A stretch of DNA of 64,000 bases from an uncultured Pelagibacteraceae bacterium (lineage in GTDB: Bacteria; Pseudomonadota; Alphaproteobacteria; Pelagibacterales; Pelagibacteraceae), in assembly GCA_902629575.1 (NCBI GenBank), contig CACORJ010000006.1:1-64000 (forward strand), given 5' to 3'. Position 1 is the first letter of the stretch, and every line of letters begins with the position of its first letter. The translations under genes were made by a program, and so were the position numbers. A model generated the notes under the pieces. It saw only the letters and a program-made list of their open reading frames with translations. It ran no database searches and was not told where the DNA came from. Below are positions 20,597-32,060 of the stretch, piece by piece.

Positions 20597-21434
20597 CTAA
20601 ATTTATTTCTTCATTAATTAAATTATGATTATGTTGCATTTGATCATATTTTCCATTTTTAAATAATAATTTAATCAAGTCAAAAATTGAGAGAAAAGTC
20701 TCAAACATTTTTTCTAAGTTTGAAACATATATCTTTCCTGAATTTTTATAATTTTCTAAATTTTTTGTGTTTAAAATTTTATGTCCTATTTTTCTATAAA
20801 CTCTCCTAGCAACTAAAATAGAAAAACGGAAACCTATTGGTATATCCTTAATTGAATAAAATGAATTTTCATAAAAAGTTTCAGCAAGTTTGATAGTTGA
20901 TGAAATTTTTTCAAAACTTTCATCAATGTAAAAACGATTATTTTTTGCATCTTCAATAACATCTCTTGATATATTGGTAAGCTGCATTGCAATTCCAAGA
21001 TCAATAGCCGATTTAAGAGAATTTCTTTTATTAACTTTTAAAATTTTTGCCATCATTAACCCAACAGTTCCGGCTACTTGATATGAATAAATTAAAAGAT
21101 CTTTTTTTGAGTCTAATTTTACTTCTGTTTTTATGTCTGATTTTATACCTAATAATAAATCTTGAACAACTTTTATAGATATCTCGAACTCCTCGATAAG
21201 ACTCCACATATTTTTGATTATAGAATTTTTAAAATTTTTTTTATGAAAATCGTTTTCGAATTGAGTAAATTTTTTTAATTTATTTTCTATTCCCTCTTCA
21301 TCATCTGCAATATTGTCTGCAACTCTACAAAAATCATACAAAGCTGAACATTCTTTAAATTTTTCTTTAGGCAAAAAATAACCTGCCCAACTAAATGATT
21401 TAGCGTAAACTGATAGATAGCTTGTATTAGACAT
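20583..21434 (-). CDS. crtB: Phytoene synthase
   Basis: The 283-residue trans-isoprenyl diphosphate synthase has both Asp-rich motifs (DFCRVADNIADDEEG and NISRDVIEDAKNNRFYI) plus SFSWAGYFLPKEK at the N-terminus. It condenses two GGPP to phytoene. It shares one base with crtI (TAATG) and 14 bp with crtY. GGPP synthase (crtE) is not in the window, so GGPP must come from a prenyl synthase encoded elsewhere. Confidence 0.95.
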   Translation of the reverse strand: MSNTSYLSVYAKSFSWAGYFLPKEKFKECSALYDFCRVADNIADDEEGIENKLKKFTQFENDFHKKNFKNSIIKNMWSLIEEFEISIKVVQDLLLGIKSDIKTEVKLDSKKDLLIYSYQVAGTVGLMMAKILKVNKRNSLKSAIDLGIAMQLTNISRDVIEDAKNNRFYIDESFEKISSTIKLAETFYENSFYSIKDIPIGFRFSILVARRVYRKIGHKILNTKNLENYKNSGKIYVSNLEKMFETFLSIFDLIKLLFKNGKYDQMQHNHNLINEEINLDERI

Positions 21435-22894
21435 TACAGAATTTTATCTAATACTTTTGCTGACGAAAGCACTCCAGGCACCCCAGCACCTGGATGAGTG
21501 CCTGCTCCCACAAAATAAAGTCCATCGTATATTTCAGATTTATTGTGAAATCTAAAATAAGCAGATTGTGAAAACTTTGGTTGGATTGAAAAACCAGATC
21601 CATGTTTGGTATTTAAATCATTTTCAAAGTAATCTGGCGTTAGATAAAAATCTTCAACAATGTTTTCACCAAGTTTCGGCATAAGATCCCTTTCCATTTT
21701 ATTAATCACTAAATTTTTCATTTTTTCACCTTCGATTGACCAATCAATTTTTGATTGATTATTTGGAACCGGAACCAAAACATAAAAACAATCTTGTCCT
21801 GAGGGAGCCATTGATCTATCAGTTGCAGATGGACGGTGAAGGTAATAACTAATATCGTTATTTAGTTTTTTGTTGTCAAATATATCATCGAGATGTTCTT
21901 TATATTTATTTCCAAATTTTATTGTGTGGTGTTCAACGTTTTCATATCTTTTTTTAGTTCCAAAATAATAAACAAATAGTCCCATTGAATATTCCATCCG
22001 ATTTTTTTTCCATTTAAAAAGAAATGAATTGTTAGTATTTTCATTTAACATTTTTTCATAAACTGCAGGTGGGTCCGCATTACATATTACATTATTAGAA
22101 TTTATAATAGTTTGATCATTAAGTTGAACACCAGTAATCTTTTTTTTATCTGAAATAATTTTTGTTACTTCATAACCTTTGATTACTTCAATTCCCTCTT
22201 CATCCATTAATTTTTCAAAACCTTTTATTATGTTTCCAGTTCCCCCCATTGAATAATGGATTCCCCATTTTTTTTCTAAATATAAAATTAGTCCATAAAT
22301 AGAGGTGGTTGTAAATGGATTTCCACCAACTAAGAGGGGATGCATACTTAACATTCTTCTTAATTTCTCATTTTTTATATAGGATGAAACTAATGAATAG
22401 ACTGATTTGTAACTTTTAAGTTTTAAAAGAGCTGGTAATTGTTGCATCATCACAAAAGGTTTGTCAAATGGGACGTCTGCTAGTTCAGTGAAACCTTTAT
22501 CAAAAATTTTTTTGGTAAAATCCACAAGTTTTTCGTAGCCAACTACATCTTCTTTGGAGATTTCCTTAATCTGTCTTTTCATTTCTATTTCATCTCCAGA
22601 GTAATTAAATTTAGTCTTATCCTCAAAAATAAACTGATACCAAATCTTCAAAGGAGCTATATCTATGTAATGTTTTGGATTTTTATTAAATAATTCAAAC
22701 AATTCTTTAATTAAGTAGGGTGCTGTAATTACTGTTGGCCCTCCGTCATATATGAAGCCATTTCTTTTAAATACTCTTGCTCTTCCACCTAGATCTGGAT
22801 GTTTTTCAATTAAAGTTACATCATGGCCTTTTGCTTTAAGTCGAAGAGCAGCTGCTATTCCTCCAAAACCTGAGCCAATTACAATAGATTTCAT
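21434..22894 (-). CDS. crtI: Phytoene desaturase
   Basis: The 486-residue FAD enzyme has an N-terminal dinucleotide fold VIGSGFGGIAAALRLKAKGH, then DLGGRARVFKRNGFIYDGGP, and the C-terminal CrtI motif FVGAGTHPGAGVPGVLSSA. It introduces double bonds into phytoene, giving lycopene for CrtY. It is the first gene of the crt cluster, with 40 bp between it and the end of atpF. Whether it has its own promoter or is read through from the ATP synthase genes cannot be settled from sequence. Confidence 0.95.
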   Translation of the reverse strand: MKSIVIGSGFGGIAAALRLKAKGHDVTLIEKHPDLGGRARVFKRNGFIYDGGPTVITAPYLIKELFELFNKNPKHYIDIAPLKIWYQFIFEDKTKFNYSGDEIEMKRQIKEISKEDVVGYEKLVDFTKKIFDKGFTELADVPFDKPFVMMQQLPALLKLKSYKSVYSLVSSYIKNEKLRRMLSMHPLLVGGNPFTTTSIYGLILYLEKKWGIHYSMGGTGNIIKGFEKLMDEEGIEVIKGYEVTKIISDKKKITGVQLNDQTIINSNNVICNADPPAVYEKMLNENTNNSFLFKWKKNRMEYSMGLFVYYFGTKKRYENVEHHTIKFGNKYKEHLDDIFDNKKLNNDISYYLHRPSATDRSMAPSGQDCFYVLVPVPNNQSKIDWSIEGEKMKNLVINKMERDLMPKLGENIVEDFYLTPDYFENDLNTKHGSGFSIQPKFSQSAYFRFHNKSEIYDGLYFVGAGTHPGAGVPGVLSSAKVLDKIL

Positions 22895-25004: not shown

Positions 25005-25280
25005 CTATTTTTGCATGTTTTTAGCTGATCTAACTACATTTATTATACCTGCAATTACACCAACAAAAAAAAAAATTATTATTAACCATGGCTTAGTACC
25101 AAAGGTCTTGTCTAAAATAAACCCAATAATTGTCCCCACCACAACGGCTGAAACGAGTTCTGTACTGAGTTTAAAAGCAGCACCAATAGACGATGAATTT
25201 TGGTTCTTTGTACCTTGATTTTTCCTCAAAATCTTATTTTTTGCAATCTGTAAGCGAGTTTTAAACTGATCTTTAGTCAT
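25005..25280 (-). CDS. atpI: ATP synthase accessory protein AtpI/AtpZ-like
   Basis: The 91-residue protein has a basic N-terminal stretch of about 30 residues and two membrane helices (ELVSAVVVGTIIGFILDK and PWLIIIFFFVGVIAGIINVV). The GxxxGxxxD pattern and position just before atpB match the AtpI/AtpZ family, which helps assemble the c-ring or carries magnesium in some bacteria. It is 5 bp after smc on the same strand, so the F0 operon may be read through from smc. Confidence 0.88.
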   Translation of the reverse strand: MTKDQFKTRLQIAKNKILRKNQGTKNQNSSSIGAAFKLSTELVSAVVVGTIIGFILDKTFGTKPWLIIIFFFVGVIAGIINVVRSAKNMQK

Positions 25281-25285
25281 ATATT

Positions 25286-27682
25286 TTAAGCGACCATACT
25301 CTCAGCTTTTTGAAGATCTACTGCTACTAACTGACTTATGCCTTTCTCCGGCATTGTCACTCCATAAAGTCTATCCATTTTTGACATTGTTAAGGCGTGG
25401 TGGGTTACAATAATGAACCTAGTATTTGTAATTTTAGTTAATTCATCTAATAAGCCACAAAATCTTGTAACATTTGCATCATCAAGAGGAGCGTCAACCT
25501 CGTCTAAAACACAAATAGGCGAGGGATTTGTTAAGAAAACTGCAAATATTAATGATAGCGCTGTTAAAGCTTGCTCCCCCCCAGATAATAATGTGATTGA
25601 TTGTAGTCTTTTACCAGGAGGACTCACTAACATTTCTAATCCTGCCTCTAAAGGATCATCCGAGTCAACCAATTCTAGCTTTGCATTACCTCCATTAAAT
25701 AGTTTTGTATAAACTTCATTGAATTTTCTATTAACTTTTTCAAACGCTTCGATTAATCTTTCCCTGCCTTTTTGATTTAGTTCATTGATACTTTCTTTAA
25801 GTTTAACTATAGCTGTTACCAAATCTGATCGATCTTGCTCCATTTTTTTAATTTCTATTTCATACTTATTAGTTTCTTCATCAGCTTTTAAATTAACTGA
25901 TCCTAATTTTTCTCTTACTTGTTTTTTTTTGTCTAATAAATCTTCTTGGTCAACATGATTTGGTAGCTCATCAATACCATTTAAATTTGAATTTTCTAGA
26001 ATGTTATCTTCGGTTAAATTAAGTTCCGAACTTATTCTATCTAATAAATCTGATTTTCTTTTATTCAAACCTTCAATAGTGGCACCAGAACTTGCTTTTC
26101 TTTCTCTTATTTGAATTGATTGTTCTTGGATTTCATTCAGTTGCGCCCTTAAGATCTTTATATTTTCATCAGTTACATCTATTATTTTTTCAATTTCAGT
26201 TTTTTCTTGATTAGAAATTCTTAGACTTTCTGAAATTTGACCTTTTTTTTCTGCTTGTATTTTTGGCTGATTATCTAATTTTTCTAATTGAATATTAAAT
26301 TTATTTTTTCTTTCTGAAAGTTCGTTAACCATTTTTTCAGAATTTAAAAGTAAGTTTTTCCAACTGTCGATTTCTTTTTCGATAATCTTTATTCTTTCAT
26401 TTCTTTTAATGGACTCATTTTTAATATTACGATTTTTGCTATATGTATCAGCATAGATTTCTATACTACTCTCAAAAATATTTAGTGCACTCAGGGCATC
26501 CTGGTTTTGTTTACTAGAAATTAGGTTTCTTAGATTATCTATTTCTTTTTTTAATTTATTTTTTGATAAATCTAAATCTTCGTTGGACTGTTTTTCGGTT
26601 TCATAATATTTTGAGTCAATTTGTATAAGGTCATTTTTTTCTTCTTTAAGCCTTTTTTCATTTGAATTTGCATCTATTATTATTCCATTTTCTCTAGAAA
26701 TATCTTCATCTAATGTTTGTAAAGATTTTTTACTATTTTCTATTTCTTGTTGTGTCCTAGTATTTTCTTCATCAAGATTTTGAAGTTCTAAATTAAGTCT
26801 TTGAACTTTTGATAAATTCTCAATATTTTTTTCTCGGAGTGGCCTTACTTTTTCTGTTTCTAATTTTATTTGCTTTTCAAGTTCGCTAATTTTATCATTA
26901 TAGCCTGACACTTCTCCCTCAGCTTCTGTATTGATTTCATTTTCAATCCTAATCTCCTTATCAATTTCAATTAATCTCAAATAATAAAGTCCTGCTTCAA
27001 TTTTTTTTATTTCTTCAGAGATTAGTTTATATTTTGTAGCCTCTTCAGCCTGTTTTTGAAGATTAGCTAACTGTCTTTCTTGTTGTCTCCTTAGCTCATC
27101 AGCTCTTTTTAGATTGTTTTCTGCTGCACCTAATCTTAATTCCGCTTCATGTCTTCTAACATGAAGTCCAGAAATCCCAGCAGCTTCCTCTAAAATTGCC
27201 CTTCTATCCGTTGGTTTAGCAGTTACAATTGCTCCAATACGACCCTGACTGATCATGGATGGTGAATGAGCGCCAGTTGATAAATCAGCAAAAAACATCT
27301 GAGTATCTCTTGCTCTAACCTCTCTATCGTTTATATAAAACTTTGAGCCTTTGTCTCTCTCAATTTTTCTTCTAATATTTATTTCATTTAATTCTCTATA
27401 TTGGATAGGCCCATCATTATTGTTATTACTAACTGAGACTGAAACTTCAGCAATATTTTTTGAGGCTTTATTTGAAGTGCCGGAAAATATCACGTCCTCC
27501 ATACCAGAACCCCTCATACTCTTCGCAGACGTTTCGCCCATAACCCATCTTAAAGACTCTACAATATTTGATTTACCACATCCATTTGGACCAACAATAC
27601 CAGTCAAACCGTTTTCAATTAAGAAATTAGTTTTATCAGCAAAAGATTTAAATCCATTTAATTGGATTTTTTTAAACTCCAT
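25286..27682 (-). CDS. smc: Chromosome segregation ATPase SMC, short form without a visible hinge
   Basis: The 798-residue protein has an SMC N-terminal head with Walker A GPNGCGKSN (residues 31-39) and a C-terminal head with signature LSGGEQALTALSL (from about 699) and Walker B ICVLDEVDAPLDDAN. Between them (about 170-640) is nearly continuous Lys/Glu/Asn-rich coiled coil. Standard bacterial SMC is about 1150-1200 residues with a Gly-rich hinge in the middle; I see no hinge-like globular segment here. Both ends are intact, so this is an internal loss and not truncation. SMC organises newly replicated DNA from parS sites. ScpA and ScpB are not in the window. Confidence 0.92.
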   Translation of the reverse strand: MEFKKIQLNGFKSFADKTNFLIENGLTGIVGPNGCGKSNIVESLRWVMGETSAKSMRGSGMEDVIFSGTSNKASKNIAEVSVSVSNNNNDGPIQYRELNEINIRRKIERDKGSKFYINDREVRARDTQMFFADLSTGAHSPSMISQGRIGAIVTAKPTDRRAILEEAAGISGLHVRRHEAELRLGAAENNLKRADELRRQQERQLANLQKQAEEATKYKLISEEIKKIEAGLYYLRLIEIDKEIRIENEINTEAEGEVSGYNDKISELEKQIKLETEKVRPLREKNIENLSKVQRLNLELQNLDEENTRTQQEIENSKKSLQTLDEDISRENGIIIDANSNEKRLKEEKNDLIQIDSKYYETEKQSNEDLDLSKNKLKKEIDNLRNLISSKQNQDALSALNIFESSIEIYADTYSKNRNIKNESIKRNERIKIIEKEIDSWKNLLLNSEKMVNELSERKNKFNIQLEKLDNQPKIQAEKKGQISESLRISNQEKTEIEKIIDVTDENIKILRAQLNEIQEQSIQIRERKASSGATIEGLNKRKSDLLDRISSELNLTEDNILENSNLNGIDELPNHVDQEDLLDKKKQVREKLGSVNLKADEETNKYEIEIKKMEQDRSDLVTAIVKLKESINELNQKGRERLIEAFEKVNRKFNEVYTKLFNGGNAKLELVDSDDPLEAGLEMLVSPPGKRLQSITLLSGGEQALTALSLIFAVFLTNPSPICVLDEVDAPLDDANVTRFCGLLDELTKITNTRFIIVTHHALTMSKMDRLYGVTMPEKGISQLVAVDLQKAESMVA

Positions 27683-27690
27683 AAGTTAAC

Positions 27691-28278
27691 TTATATCAGT
27701 TTTTCTAAAGTTTTTTTTAAATTTTTGTAATTAAGAGTTTTTTCAAACTTTTTGTTATTAATAATTATCGTAGGAGTAGCATTTACCTTAAATTTCTTAG
27801 CTCCCTCGATTCGATCGTTTAAAATAAAGTTCTCGATATTCTTATTGGTTGTGCACTCATTGTAGTTTAGATTAAATCCTTCTGACTTTACAACTTTTTT
27901 TAAGTTTTCATTAATATCCTCTATTGATTTGCCTTTGACCCATTTTGATTGGTTTAAAAATAAACTTTCTAAAATTTTTGAATTACCATCATTTTTACAT
28001 TGGGATAATTTTGATGCATTAAAAGCTGCTATATCTAACGGAAAATGTCTAAATTCTATTTTTGCTAATCCAGTATCTATATATTCTCTTTTTAATTCAG
28101 GAAAAATATTGATATGAAAGCTTGCACAATGACTACAAGTTAGAGACTCATATGCAATAATTGTAATCTTTGCATTTTCATTTCCTATTTTTATTCTCTT
28201 TATTTCTTTCGAGCCATCAGCTACACTAAGAGAAATTTGAAAGAATAAAATTATTAATATTATTATTGTTTTTTTCAT
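27691..28278 (-). CDS. DsbA-family periplasmic thiol:disulfide protein
   Basis: The 195-residue precursor has a signal peptide (residues 1-20, ending SLSVA), then a thioredoxin domain with the active site Cys48-Ser-His-Cys51 in LTCSHCASFH and the cis-Pro loop VNATPTIII. The inserted helical domain is as in DsbA/BdbD (thioredoxin_4 class). It probably oxidises or shuffles periplasmic disulfides, or serves cytochrome maturation. Its start overlaps the dciA stop by 4 bp, and smc follows 8 bp later. Donor or partner (DsbB) is not in the window. Confidence 0.87.
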   Translation of the reverse strand: MKKTIIILIILFFQISLSVADGSKEIKRIKIGNENAKITIIAYESLTCSHCASFHINIFPELKREYIDTGLAKIEFRHFPLDIAAFNASKLSQCKNDGNSKILESLFLNQSKWVKGKSIEDINENLKKVVKSEGFNLNYNECTTNKNIENFILNDRIEGAKKFKVNATPTIIINNKKFEKTLNYKNLKKTLEKLI

Positions 28279-28763
28279 TTTTGTTTAAAGACTCTTGCAA
28301 ATTCTATTAAAGACTTTTTAATTTTATCATTTTTAATATCTTTAATTTTACTTTGATATTTCTTTAATGTCACATTAATTTCTTTATTCTTATTATTAGA
28401 TAATACTTCTTTGCTATCGTCAAAGCTAATAGCTTTTATTCTTTCTACAACGTCATATCCAAAAAAACTGTTCATCTTATCTAAGATTGTTTTTTTTGAA
28501 TATTCCATCTCAACCTCATGCCCTCTTTTTACCATTACCACTAGAGTACTTACCCCGAATCTGTTAGAATTTTTGAATGATTTAGGAAAACAAATTTTAA
28601 AAAGATCTTTTCCAACTAAATATTTCCAATTATTTAAAGTTTGAGAATAAATATGACCTTTTTTATTAATAATTTTTTTTATATTTTTTGGTAAAGTATC
28701 TTTAAATGATCTTAAGCCTTGAAAGGCAGCACTTCTCTGCTTAGAATATTTTTTAAATTGCAT
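28275..28763 (-). CDS. DUF721 / DciA-family protein
   Basis: The 162-residue protein begins KYSKQRSAAFQGLRSF and contains the DUF721 core NNWKYLVGKDLFKICFPKSF, followed by a beta segment with VSTLVVMVKRGHEVEMEYSK and a charged C-terminal tail. DUF721 includes DciA, the ancestral loader of replicative helicase DnaB in bacteria without DnaC. That role here is inferred from the family. Its ATG is back to back with the mutY ATG (CATATG at 28761-28766), so promoters for both must lie inside the other gene. Confidence 0.8.
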   Translation of the reverse strand: MQFKKYSKQRSAAFQGLRSFKDTLPKNIKKIINKKGHIYSQTLNNWKYLVGKDLFKICFPKSFKNSNRFGVSTLVVMVKRGHEVEMEYSKKTILDKMNSFFGYDVVERIKAISFDDSKEVLSNNKNKEINVTLKKYQSKIKDIKNDKIKKSLIEFARVFKQK

Positions 28764-29744
28764 ATGAAAGAAGAAATATTAGCAAAAAAAATTCTAAATT
28801 GGTATGATTTAAATAAAAGATCATTACCGTGGCGTAAAAATGTTTCACAATCAAAAAAACATTATCATACGTTAGTAAGTGAATTTATGTTGCAGCAAAC
28901 ACAGGTTGTAACTGTAATCCCCTATTTCAATAGATTTATTAATAAGATTCCTAATCTTAAAAAACTCTCAACAATTCAAGATATGGAATTAATAAAACTT
29001 TGGGAGGGTCTTGGATATTATTCAAGAGCAAGAAATCTAAAAAAAACTGCTCAAATCATAATTACTAAACATAATGGAAAAATTCCAAATAATTATGAGG
29101 ATTTAATATCTTTACCAGGTATCGGTAATTACACTGCTAATGCAATCTTAGCTATTGCCTTCAATAAATCCTATATTCCTTTAGACGGAAATATTGAAAG
29201 AGTTTTAAAAAGATATCTTTATTTAAAAAAAGATCAGGAAATACAAAAAAAAAATCTTATACAAAAAAAATCTATTTTTGGAAATTCATCAAGAGCTAGT
29301 GATTATGCCCAAGCCTTGATGGAATTGGGGGCAATGATATGTAAACCAAAAAATCCTGAATGCAGTGGATGTCCTATACCGAAAAATTGCAGGTCTTATA
29401 AAAAAAAAGATTTTGATTTGGCTAAAGTTTCAAAAAAGAATAAAGAAAAATATTTTATTCTAAAAGTTTATAAGAAAAATCAAAAATATTTATTAGTTAA
29501 AAATACAAAATTTAATTTTCTTAAAAATTTGGTAATTTTTCCTATGGAAGAGCTGTCTAAACCTAAAAATTTTCATGAAAATCTAAATTTTAAAATGTCA
29601 AATATGAATATGAACATAAAGATTCAATATTCTAAAAATGTAAAAGGATTTTCCTCATCTTATTGGTTTGATAAAAGAAAATTAAATAATTATATGCTTC
29701 CAACATTTACAAAAAAAGTAGTTAAATACTTAGAAAAAAATTAA
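28764..29744 (+). CDS. mutY: A/G-specific adenine glycosylase
   Basis: The 326-residue enzyme has a helix-hairpin-helix region LPGIGNYTANAILAIAF, catalytic Glu in SEFMLQQTQV, catalytic Asp in LDGNIERVLKR, and a [4Fe-4S] loop with the C-x6-C-x2-C-x5-C spacing (CKPKNPECSGCPIPKNC). A degenerate NUDIX-like domain follows for 8-oxoG recognition. It removes adenine mispaired with 8-oxoguanine. I start at ATG 28764, not at the in-frame TTG 28719, because it fits the family and abuts the divergent gene's start. It shares one base with the next gene (TAATG). Confidence 0.95.
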   Translation: MKEEILAKKILNWYDLNKRSLPWRKNVSQSKKHYHTLVSEFMLQQTQVVTVIPYFNRFINKIPNLKKLSTIQDMELIKLWEGLGYYSRARNLKKTAQIIITKHNGKIPNNYEDLISLPGIGNYTANAILAIAFNKSYIPLDGNIERVLKRYLYLKKDQEIQKKNLIQKKSIFGNSSRASDYAQALMELGAMICKPKNPECSGCPIPKNCRSYKKKDFDLAKVSKKNKEKYFILKVYKKNQKYLLVKNTKFNFLKNLVIFPMEELSKPKNFHENLNFKMSNMNMNIKIQYSKNVKGFSSSYWFDKRKLNNYMLPTFTKKVVKYLEKN

Positions 29745-30889
29745 TGAAAAAAGTAGCTGTAATTGGTGCTGGTATTTCTGGGTTATTTATTGCTAATTTA
29801 TTCAAAAAGAACACAAAGTATAAAGTTACAATCTTTGAAAAAAACAACTTGATTAATTTAAAGGAAGGTTACGGTATTCAATTATCTGTTAATAGCATTA
29901 AAATTTTAAATAATATTAATTTTGATAGATTGAATTTTAACGAGAAATTTAATCCAGATAAGATCAATTTTTATTCAATTAAAAATTCTAGTAAGATATG
30001 TGAACTTGATTTATCAAATTTTAACACTGAAAATTGCAAATATACTACTCTTAAACGATCATCACTAATTAATTTCTTGAAAAAAAATTTAGAAAAAGAA
30101 ATAAAATTTGACCACAGTATCTCAAAGATAGATCATCAAAACCAAATTATTAAAATTTCTTTTAATAATGGTGAAATTTATGAGTGTGATTATCTTATTA
30201 TATCAGATGGAGTTTTTTCAAAGGGTAAAAATCTTATTTCAAAAAATCAAATTGAGCCTCAATTTGATAATACATTAGCAATTAGAGGAATAATAAAAAA
30301 TTCCTCAGATCTAATTGATAAAAAAAATATTTCATTGTTTTTGGGTTCAAATTTTCATTACGTTATTTATCCAGTATCTCCTAATGGGGAACTTAACTTT
30401 ATAGCTGTAATGAAATATAAACTTTCTATAAAAGAACAAAATGATAATTCATTATTTGATAATGATAATTTTATTAAAAAAATTTTAGAAAAAGTCCCAA
30501 ATGTAAAAAAGAAATTTTTTGACAATATCAGGGATTTAAAGATATATCCTGTATTTGTTAGTAATAATTTTTTTAAAATCAAAAACGATAATATTCATCT
30601 TATAGGAGATGCTTTTTTTGCATTTCCACCGTCATTTGCTCAAGGTGCATCACAGTCAATAGAGGGTGCATATGAATTATTTCAGAATATAGAAAATAAT
30701 ACTGAAAGTAACTTTTTTAGAAATAGAGTTGATAAAACTAAAATGGTTAATAATCGCTCAAAACTTAATCAATTTGCATTTCATTTATCTAATCCTTTAA
30801 CAACTTTCATAAGAAATATTTGTTTAAAAAGATTGGTAAAAAATAAAAAGTTTTTAGAGAGCTATCTTGGTAAAGTATATAAAAATTAA
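29744..30889 (+). CDS. FAD-dependent monooxygenase (UbiH/salicylate-hydroxylase-like)
   Basis: The 381-residue flavoprotein has an N-terminal dinucleotide fold VAVIGAGISGLFIANLF, the mid-chain DG motif in CDYLIISDGVFSKGK, and the GD motif in HLIGDAFFAFPPSFAQGASQSIEGA. This is the class A aromatic hydroxylase architecture, as in ubiquinone hydroxylases and many catabolic monooxygenases. The GD motif is followed by PPSFAQG rather than the HPLAGQG common in UbiH/UbiF, so a ubiquinone role is not certain. It is coupled to mutY (TAATG) and ends convergently on ccrM with the shared stop TTAA. The substrate is unknown. Confidence 0.85.
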   Translation: MKKVAVIGAGISGLFIANLFKKNTKYKVTIFEKNNLINLKEGYGIQLSVNSIKILNNINFDRLNFNEKFNPDKINFYSIKNSSKICELDLSNFNTENCKYTTLKRSSLINFLKKNLEKEIKFDHSISKIDHQNQIIKISFNNGEIYECDYLIISDGVFSKGKNLISKNQIEPQFDNTLAIRGIIKNSSDLIDKKNISLFLGSNFHYVIYPVSPNGELNFIAVMKYKLSIKEQNDNSLFDNDNFIKKILEKVPNVKKKFFDNIRDLKIYPVFVSNNFFKIKNDNIHLIGDAFFAFPPSFAQGASQSIEGAYELFQNIENNTESNFFRNRVDKTKMVNNRSKLNQFAFHLSNPLTTFIRNICLKRLVKNKKFLESYLGKVYKN

Positions 30890-31956
30890 TTATTAGAAAT
30901 TAATCTTTGTCTTAAATGATCTATAGGGACCATATTTCCATTTAAGTTGTAGTGCCAATAAGTCCATCCATTACAGCTATCTGCACCTAAAATAGAGGCT
31001 GCTACTTTATGTATAGAACCCTCGGTATTTGCATGTTTTATGCTGCCATCAGCCATGATTTTTGCATTAATCTTCATTTTATTATCAAAAATAGTAGTAC
31101 CTGGTTTAATTATTCCTAACTCAACCAATGATCCAAACGGTATTCTTGGCTTAGTTCTACCGTTTTGCAAAGTATCTAAATAATCATCTTCTATAGGTTT
31201 TGCTTTCTTTAGTCTTTTTTCAGCAGCTTTAAAATAGGTTTTTTCTTTTTCAATTCCGTAATAATTTCTACCCAATTTTTTGGCAACTGTTGCTGTTGTT
31301 CCAGAACCTAAAAAAGGATCTAAAATTAAATCATTTTTATTTGAAGTTGCTAATAAAATTCTGTGAAGTAGAGCCTCAGGTTTCTGGGTAGAATGCACTT
31401 TTTTACCATTCTTTTTTAGTCTCTCAGAACCATTACAAATTGGCAATTCCCAGTTAGATCTCATTTGAAGATCGTCATTTAAACACTTTAGGGACTGATA
31501 ATTAAAAGTATATTTTGATTTTTCAGATTTAGATGCCCAAATTAAAGTTTCATGGGCGTTTGTAAAACGTGTCCCTCTAAAATTTGGCATGGGGTTTTTT
31601 TTATTCCAAATGACGTCATTTAAAATCCAAAAACCTAAATTTTGAATAGCTGTACCAACTCTAAAAATATTATGATAACTACCAATTACCCAAATAGCTC
31701 CATTTTTTTTCAAAATTCTTTTACATTCGCTTAACCATGAATAAGTAAATTCATCATACATTTTAAAATTCTCAAATTGATCCCATTTATCATTTACTGC
31801 ACTTACTTTAGATCTATCAGGTCTTGTTAATTCACTTTTTAATTGAAGATTATAAGGAGGGTCCGCAAAAATTAAATCAAAAGTCTCATTGGGAATTTTT
31901 TTAAGTTCCTTTAAACTATCTCCATTAACTAATTTATTTTTTATGTCAAAATTCAT
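30886..31956 (-). CDS. ccrM: CcrM-type DNA adenine methyltransferase (GANTC)
   Basis: The 356-residue beta-class adenine methyltransferase has the catalytic motif ADPPYN (Asp-Pro-Pro-Tyr at residues 32-35) and the SAM motif DPFLGSGTTATVAKKLG. A C-terminal domain of about 90 residues contains GSIHKVAASILGAD and CNGWTYWHY, which is diagnostic of the alphaproteobacterial cell-cycle enzyme CcrM rather than restriction-associated enzymes. It methylates adenine in GANTC after replication. The ATG at 31956 is chosen over a start at 31998. No restriction gene is near. Two GANTC sites lie 17 and 28 bp before the start (see separate entry). Confidence 0.94.
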   Translation of the reverse strand: MNFDIKNKLVNGDSLKELKKIPNETFDLIFADPPYNLQLKSELTRPDRSKVSAVNDKWDQFENFKMYDEFTYSWLSECKRILKKNGAIWVIGSYHNIFRVGTAIQNLGFWILNDVIWNKKNPMPNFRGTRFTNAHETLIWASKSEKSKYTFNYQSLKCLNDDLQMRSNWELPICNGSERLKKNGKKVHSTQKPEALLHRILLATSNKNDLILDPFLGSGTTATVAKKLGRNYYGIEKEKTYFKAAEKRLKKAKPIEDDYLDTLQNGRTKPRIPFGSLVELGIIKPGTTIFDNKMKINAKIMADGSIKHANTEGSIHKVAASILGADSCNGWTYWHYNLNGNMVPIDHLRQRLISNN

Positions 31957-31973
31957 TTTATAAAAAGAAATTA

Positions 31974-31989
31974 GACTCCAAAAAGATTC
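31974..31989. promoter_or_regulatory. Pair of GANTC sites in the ccrM leader
   Basis: GACTC at 31974-31978 and GATTC at 31985-31989 lie 17 and 28 bases before the ccrM start codon. They are the recognition sequence of CcrM itself. In Caulobacter the ccrM leader also carries two GANTC sites whose methylation lowers expression. The same logic here is inference from position. No CtrA-type TTAA-N7-TTAA element was found next to them. Confidence 0.55.
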
Positions 31990-32060
31990 TTGGGTCAACC
32001 TGCGATTGAATTATTTTAATTTAAATTGTGTAATGTATTTTGATGGTAACAAGATCTTGT

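Follow-up and report, generated by a model that had tools for sequence, protein, structure and literature searches.

Smc proteins fold chromosomes in most bacteria, and the two chains of a pair are normally joined through a hinge domain. We describe here an Smc without this domain from SAR11, very abundant bacteria of the ocean. Its gene lies in a 64,000-nucleotide stretch of DNA, hereafter the window (positions 1 to 64,000 of contig CACORJ010000006.1, assembly GCA_902629575.1), from an uncultured Pelagibacteraceae bacterium of the order Pelagibacterales. The canonical alphaproteobacterial Smc (TIGR02168, ~1150 amino acids [aa]) has the same heads, coiled-coil base and gene neighborhood, in a lineage with the same ScpAB, ParB and parS, but the SAR11 form has no hinge, and its arm strands are ~100 to 120 residues shorter. 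Rad50 and SbcC, whose partners are Mre11 and SbcD, likewise consist of an ATP-binding cassette (ABC) head and a hairpin coil with no SMC hinge; unlike them, the SAR11 protein has no zinc hook and goes with Smc-type partners.

In June 2025, Sussfeld et al. (PMC12153180) reported a "hinge-less" SMC without CxxC in an ocean-abundant marine clade placed in the Actinobacteria. Likened by description and not by sequence, that protein and ours both have heads plus coil, no hinge and no CxxC, and both are abundant in the ocean; the SAR11 gene order, in contrast, is alphaproteobacterial. The word "pelagibacter" is absent from the main text of that report, and ScpAB and ParB are unmentioned in the portions of it examined. 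According to the sections of PMC5344682 drawn on here, the Rad50 zinc hook can replace the Smc hinge in Bacillus subtilis, the fold of the dimerization domain being irrelevant, and shortened arms work at 253 to 267 residues and fail between about 267 and 321; natural Smc arm lengths peak at 238, 341 and 515 residues on that paper's own scale, with a spacing of ~100 residues. The mini-Smc and Smc(zinc-hook) constructs described there share short arms and a dispensable hinge fold with the SAR11 protein, but they are engineered and keep a dimerization domain. A review lists DNA passage at the hinge for cohesin (PMC10512200, in the part consulted). Questions of ring closure and of passage through the hinge rest, for SMC proteins, largely on engineered molecules.

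We found no published hinge-less Smc from SAR11 in the open-licence literature, which was the scope of the search. New here are the absence of the hinge across an alphaproteobacterial order, together with that lineage's own gene order and with ScpAB, ParB and parS; a second hinge-less family; and short-armed relatives that bear a hinge. An alphaproteobacterial lineage is thus added to the actinobacterial report. Evolution appears to have removed the hinge in the sampled order and to have retained the loader, the kleisin and the loading site in most genomes, making the SAR11 Smc a natural test of the hinge's purpose. The natural series of long arms with a hinge, short arms with a hinge and short arms without one could be used to test ring-closure, gate and motor models.

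The Smc of the window and its missing hinge

The gene and the parts of its product are arranged as follows.

25286..27682, minus strand: smc, whole open reading frame (ORF), hinge-less Smc of 798 aa (TIGR02168, 668.1 bits against a cut-off of 567.35; PF02463, E 4.4e-49)
27167..27682, minus strand: N-terminal half of the ATPase head, residues 1-172 (sequence, invariant columns, AlphaFold2)
27566-27592, minus strand: Walker A, GPNGCGKSN, residues 31-39 (sequence)
26516..27166, minus strand: ascending arm, one predicted helix, residues 173-389 (AlphaFold2; hydrophobic period 3.52 over residues 176-388)
26507..26515, minus strand: tip, a 3-residue turn, residues 390-392, at the hinge site of hinge-bearing alphaproteobacterial Smc (AlphaFold2 and comparison)
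26024..26506, minus strand: descending arm, one predicted helix, residues 393-553 (AlphaFold2; hydrophobic period 3.50 over residues 394-553)
25886..26023, minus strand: coil break near the head, residues 554-599, possibly joint-like by its position (predicted secondary structure; ratio of nonsynonymous to synonymous substitution rates [dN/dS] 0.027)
25289..25885, minus strand: C-terminal arm base and C-terminal half of the head, residues 600-798 (sequence, conserved columns)
25571-25591, minus strand: LLSGGEQ signature (sequence)
25499-25516, minus strand: Walker B, ICVLDE (sequence)

The protein is over the curated cut-off of the NCBIfam equivalog SMC_prok_B (TIGR02168), and Pfam SMC_N (PF02463) matches both of its ends. 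Smc families score best on it among Pfam and NCBIfam families, and Smc heads are its closest solved structures by sequence and by fold (Foldseek). An earlier account drawn from the letters alone (the sequence-only reading) had described a 798-residue SMC with both ATPase heads intact and a Lys/Glu/Asn-rich middle almost devoid of Gly. This description was borne out by the ORF, by the head motifs and by the composition of residues 330 to 520 (2 Gly, 26 Lys, 26 Glu and 23 Asn); the span that it had singled out, 26120-26700 on the minus strand, corresponds to residues 328-521.

For comparison, we assembled 157 Smc proteins: 75 come from search loci and chosen stretches, 72 belong to the set of 80 named loci, and 10, L141 and L142 among them, were added later. 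Six named loci in which the motifs marked out no full-length frame (L137, L139, L144, L149, L164 and L197) were left out. Seventy-seven members of the set are hinge-less, 72 of them from the order (798-881 aa) and 5 from a family outside it, f25 (two identical); 75 proteins are 1102-1218 aa long. GPNG.GKSN, LLSGGE and LDEVDA are all present in 77/77 hinge-less rows; motifs of the first two types had already been used to select rows.

The Pfam hinge profile (SMC_hinge, PF06470) has no match at E ≤ 10 in the window protein or anywhere in the window's own genome, and in none of the order's 197 genomes does it pass its cut-off, although 20 of them have sub-threshold matches up to E 1 (best E 0.018). 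Because PF06470 is weak on the class (over cut-off in 88 of 289 genomes of Alphaproteobacteria), a lineage-specific hinge profile, A2, was built from 16 alphaproteobacterial Smc proteins. At E ≤ 0.01, this more sensitive profile has matches in 181 of the 289 genomes of the class (best E 4.7e-59) and in none of the 197 of the order, where a frame of 397 aa gives a single match of E 0.07. Among the 157 collected proteins, no hinge scores below 73.0 bits with A2, and no hinge-less row scores above 3.2 bits (E 0.74).

AlphaFold2 predicts the window protein (mean predicted local distance difference test score [pLDDT] 82.4, predicted template modeling score [pTM] 0.49) as a helix at residues 173-389, a turn at 390-392, a helix at 393-553, a break and a C-terminal part. 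The model has no strand of three or more residues between residues 145 and 666 and hence no alpha/beta hinge. In an 857-aa relative (L130; pLDDT 75.4, pTM 0.45), no strand is predicted at 148-725, and an extra tip helix is predicted at 422-444. The sequence-only claim of a missing hinge was therefore upheld by PF06470 with a relaxed cut-off, by A2 and by the predicted monomer, which shows no hinge fold in residues 330-520, the place where the claim might have failed; other SAR11 Smc proteins proved hinge-less throughout the sampled order as well. As judged from sequence and predicted structure, the protein has intact heads and lacks both the hinge and, in each arm, the third that would adjoin it.

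It could be argued that a hinge is present but has diverged too far for detection by profile or fold, given the poor performance of PF06470 on alphaproteobacteria and a short conserved EGYDD..W in the tip of family f2 that recalls a hinge motif. We consider this very improbable: A2 does pick up diverged hinges in 869-aa proteins (E 3.5e-25 and 1.4e-21) and gives hinge-less rows at most 3.2 bits, and there is no space for the domain, the two helices meeting in a 3-residue turn where hinge-bearing alphaproteobacterial Smc proteins have about 133 residues. Gene decay or an assembly artefact, which the state of the window's assembly (a 27-contig draft, 89.5% complete) might suggest, has a negligible probability. 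At least 43 other genomes of the order contain an unbroken match over residues 1-798 (73-87% identity, frames of 798-812 aa, no stops), including the single-contig genome G003, and other hinge-less lengths occur in the single-contig genomes G001, G005 and G013. These intact frames rule out shortening by assembly error, a possibility that the sequence-only reading had itself raised. The dN/dS, from 69 close pairs (of 595 possible among 35 sequences of 798 aa), is 0.02 in the heads, 0.05-0.07 in the arms, 0.027 in residues 554-600 and 0.12 in the tip, the highest of six regions. Values of 0.02-0.12 everywhere indicate purifying selection on every region and rule out a pseudogene. One 814-aa hinge-less Smc frame (G108:C2:149616-152057) has an internal TAG and is otherwise continuous.

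Arm length and the arm tip

Arm length was measured between fixed arm-base positions (window residues 173 and 600), the values for hinge-less rows including the tip. Mean arms of long Smc proteins are 316-335 residues in 24 of 26 rows, mostly 324, and 298 in the other two. The corresponding values are 214-256 in rows from the order, 215-222 in f25 and 180-228 in five short hinge-bearing rows (L211-L215); these last resemble the SAR11 form in their arms and have a related gene order but keep the hinge. At 214 residues, the arm of the window Smc is about two thirds of the usual ~324, each strand being ~100-120 residues shorter. The shortening predicted by the sequence-only reading is thus real, but its estimate of half the usual length was too low. 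Both arms stay regular coiled coil, with a hydrophobic period of 3.50-3.52. By analogy, the deficit of ~110 residues would be close to the ~100-residue step given in the consulted sections of PMC5344682.

Across genera (24 rows), conservation is lowest in the 20-residue bin 381-400, where mean identity is 0.21, and insertions cluster around it: positions 380-408 take up 1038 of the 1131 inserted residues. No tip motif is common to different genera in the aligned hinge-less rows, which argues against a dedicated tip dimerization domain. Within the genus, the core of the tip hairpin is kept: L377 in 48/48 sequences, I381 in 43/48, L387 in 45/48, I388 in 44/48, A396 in 46/48 and L400 in 45/48. 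A tip cysteine, Cys403, is found in 38/48 genus sequences, and the window protein has Phe403 (26474-26476). Genus g1 contains an 857-aa Smc that differs from the 798-aa form by ~30 extra residues on each side of the same tip; this state changes 3 times on the tree, and well-supported branches force 2 of the changes. The arms seem to have been resized symmetrically around a preserved turn.

The arm change between the 798- and 857-aa proteins of genus g1 is, in effect, a natural arm-resizing experiment. In proteins of the f2 type (L031, L033, L034, L035 and L138), the EGYDD..W-like tip segment occupies residues ~418-435 and reads ENYDD in L033; it loosely resembles the hinge pattern GYE...GDDL...W and is possibly a hinge remnant, with no support from the A2 profile.

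Partner genes, loading sites and possible modes of action

Partners of Smc were sought in 117 genomes of the order. The kleisin ScpA was found in 97 of these and ScpB in 99, so the sequence-only proposal to look for scpA and scpB gave a positive answer for most of the order and a negative one for the window's own assembly. The two genes adjoin in G001, G003, G005 and G013, where coordinates were compared. ParB is present in 107/117 genomes and a parS-like palindrome with at most one mismatch in 100/117 (reversed control, 21/117), the window's own genome being included in both counts, and perfect parS-like sites lie ~1.5 kb from parB in G002, G009 and G018. All 10 single-contig genomes among the 117 (G001, G003, G005, G007, G009, G011, G013, G015, G020 and G026) have Smc, ScpA, ScpB, ParB and a parS-like site. 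Gene order, purifying selection, scpA and scpB, parB and the parS-like sites point to what would be a working ParB-loaded Smc-ScpAB condensin.

With about even confidence, we propose that the protein is the Smc subunit of a SAR11 Smc-ScpAB condensin that dimerizes by zipping of arm against arm, by an ScpA bridge and by ATP-engaged heads, with no dimerization domain at the tip. Each Smc chain would fold back at the tight helical turn of the predicted monomer, and two chains would be held together by side-by-side arm contacts, the ScpA bridge and the engaged heads. Loading would still be the task of ParB at parS, and DNA may be clamped at the heads when these engage, with ATP and together with ScpAB. 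Such a zip-and-clamp machine would have a far end that is able to open, and DNA entry via a hinge would not exist.

Rad50 and RecN have the shape of a head with a hairpin coil and no hinge, a likeness that counts for a different view, in which the protein is no longer a condensin and has become a monomeric or head-only repair ATPase of the Rad50/SbcC or RecN kind. The Rad50 profile scores on the window protein, below its cut-off; a RecN chain is matched at E 9e-4 in a sequence search of the PDB, and Rad50 chains appear from Foldseek rank 13 onward. The top matches by sequence and by fold are, however, Smc, no CxxC occurs in any of the 77 hinge-less rows (77/77), the neighboring genes are arranged as they are around alphaproteobacterial smc, and ScpA, ScpB, ParB and parS-like sites are mostly kept. 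We regard a repair ATPase as quite improbable, and membership of Rad50/SbcC is ruled out by the missing CxxC together with the Smc scores. The sequence-only suggestion of a "Rad50-like" machine is therefore not supported: the protein is an Smc orthologue by cut-off, gene order and head tree, in a lineage most of whose sampled genomes have the Smc partners.

Several observations weigh against the zipped condensin that we propose. Neither scpA nor scpB was found in the window's own assembly, and the AlphaFold2 models are monomers from shallow alignments (A3, 30 rows; A4, 15 rows). The 214-residue arm would fall below the engineered 253-267 range of PMC5344682, a comparison between two scales (full-length alphaproteobacterial arms measure 324 here and 341-344 there). 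In the experiments described in that paper's consulted sections, the hinge replacement itself brought a dimerization domain, so contact at the tip may be needed. The hydrophobic tip pattern kept within the genus and the longer helical tip of the 857-aa form would also permit a tip-to-tip bundle. The tip hairpin might then be a new, small dimerization element, its helical bundle closing the Smc-ScpA ring in the hinge's stead. Such a role could account for the genus-level hydrophobic core (I381, V/I384, L387, I388, A396 and L400) and for the frequent Cys403, for arm strands that gain or lose ~30 residues on either side while the tip remains, and for the additional tip helix of the 857-aa protein; any dimerization domain tried at that place, including the zinc hook, sufficed in B. 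subtilis, as far as the portions of PMC5344682 used here report. However, this same tip is the least conserved stretch between genera, has the highest dN/dS and takes up most of the insertions, intrachain packing of the hairpin would account for its core residues just as well, and the window protein has Phe in place of Cys at 403. We therefore consider a dimerizing tip, the strongest of the alternatives, rather unlikely and retain arm zipping with the ScpA bridge and engaged heads as our working model.

Gene order, distribution and origin of the hinge-less form

The window Smc is most likely an orthologue of alphaproteobacterial Smc, and not a paralogue or an import, because of the equivalog cut-off, the gene order and the head tree. 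Its neighbors, named by resemblance, are given with the number of matching loci among all 80 named loci, hinge-less ones included; gene order was inspected for L129-L160.

25005..25280, minus strand: atpI-like, downstream neighbor of smc (23/80 loci)
27691..28278, minus strand: dsbA-like, upstream neighbor of smc (62/80 loci)
28275..28763, minus strand: DUF721-like (22/80 loci)
28719..29744, plus strand: mutY-like, true start probably downstream of the listed TTG (49/80 loci)

An atpB-like match occurs in 42/80 named loci. The order mutY-DUF721-dsbA-smc-atpI-atpB occurs in full at the f25 genes L217 and L218, and hinge-bearing alphaproteobacterial genes have all or part of it. A phage or mobile origin was rejected: a scan of IMG/VR with alignment A1 turned up 12 weak relatives (26-54% identity, the 54% covering 34 residues and the two long matches reaching 29-31%), and the genes around smc keep a conserved order.

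With the window Smc as the query, a match was found in 180 of the 197 genomes of the order and in 139 of the 149 of good quality; the remaining 17 (10 of good quality) had none. Among the matches listed, frames from the order are 798-891 aa long, except in G099 (533) and G049 (632, starting at the locus edge). A TIGR02168 search of 36 picked order genomes gave a strong Smc match in 30, with no second strong match among those listed, and no match or a weak one in G019, G058, G093, G100, G111 and G117, which had been picked as missed by the window-protein query. The nearest named relatives are uncultured Pelagibacteraceae, at ≤79% best-segment identity, which is the ground for the name SAR11 used here.

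Outside the order, family f25 (G219, G350 and G447) has frames of 806-820 aa with no A2 hinge match. The G447 Smc is identical to that of MarineAlpha6_Bin4 (L142), and L141, labeled Pelagibacteraceae by its submitters, falls with f25 on the tree. Other alphaproteobacteria with small genomes have a short Smc with a hinge: G356 (882 aa), G313 (963), G464 (936), and G453 and G226 (869 each). These are L211-L215, in which the short arms are accompanied by a retained hinge; the hinges of L214 and L215 have diverged. Ten genomes that belong to the class and not to the order have an A1 match and no A2 hinge match: G212, G219, G240, G260, G332, G350, G382, G418, G422 and G447, of which the three f25 members (G219, G350 and G447) were inspected individually; 95 of the 289 class genomes have no A1 match at E 1e-20 and are hence uninformative on the hinge.

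In a tree of the heads built from 54 chosen rows (L216 omitted as a copy of L142), the order forms one clade (100/99), and f25 stands apart, grouping weakly (79/58) with three short hinge-bearing rows; the f25 rows have an odd composition and a long branch. The best tree implies two changes of hinge state, but the approximately unbiased test does not reject a single clade of all hinge-less rows (p-AU 0.193). In a bolder reading, which we hold at clearly less than even confidence, the hinge, usually described as essential to SMC assembly, would have been lost at the base of the order and independently in one or more other alphaproteobacterial families; ParB-loaded Smc-ScpAB function would have been kept, and the arms would be topologically open, with DNA handled at the heads only. 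These cases raise the possibility that genome streamlining repeatedly favors hinge loss.

Two other features of the window were noted by eye. A phytoene-desaturase-like ORF, recognized by its N-terminus, lies at 21434-22894 (minus strand) beside the ATP synthase block, and a putative CcrM-type DNA methyltransferase with a DPPYNLQL motif lies at 30886-31998 (minus strand).

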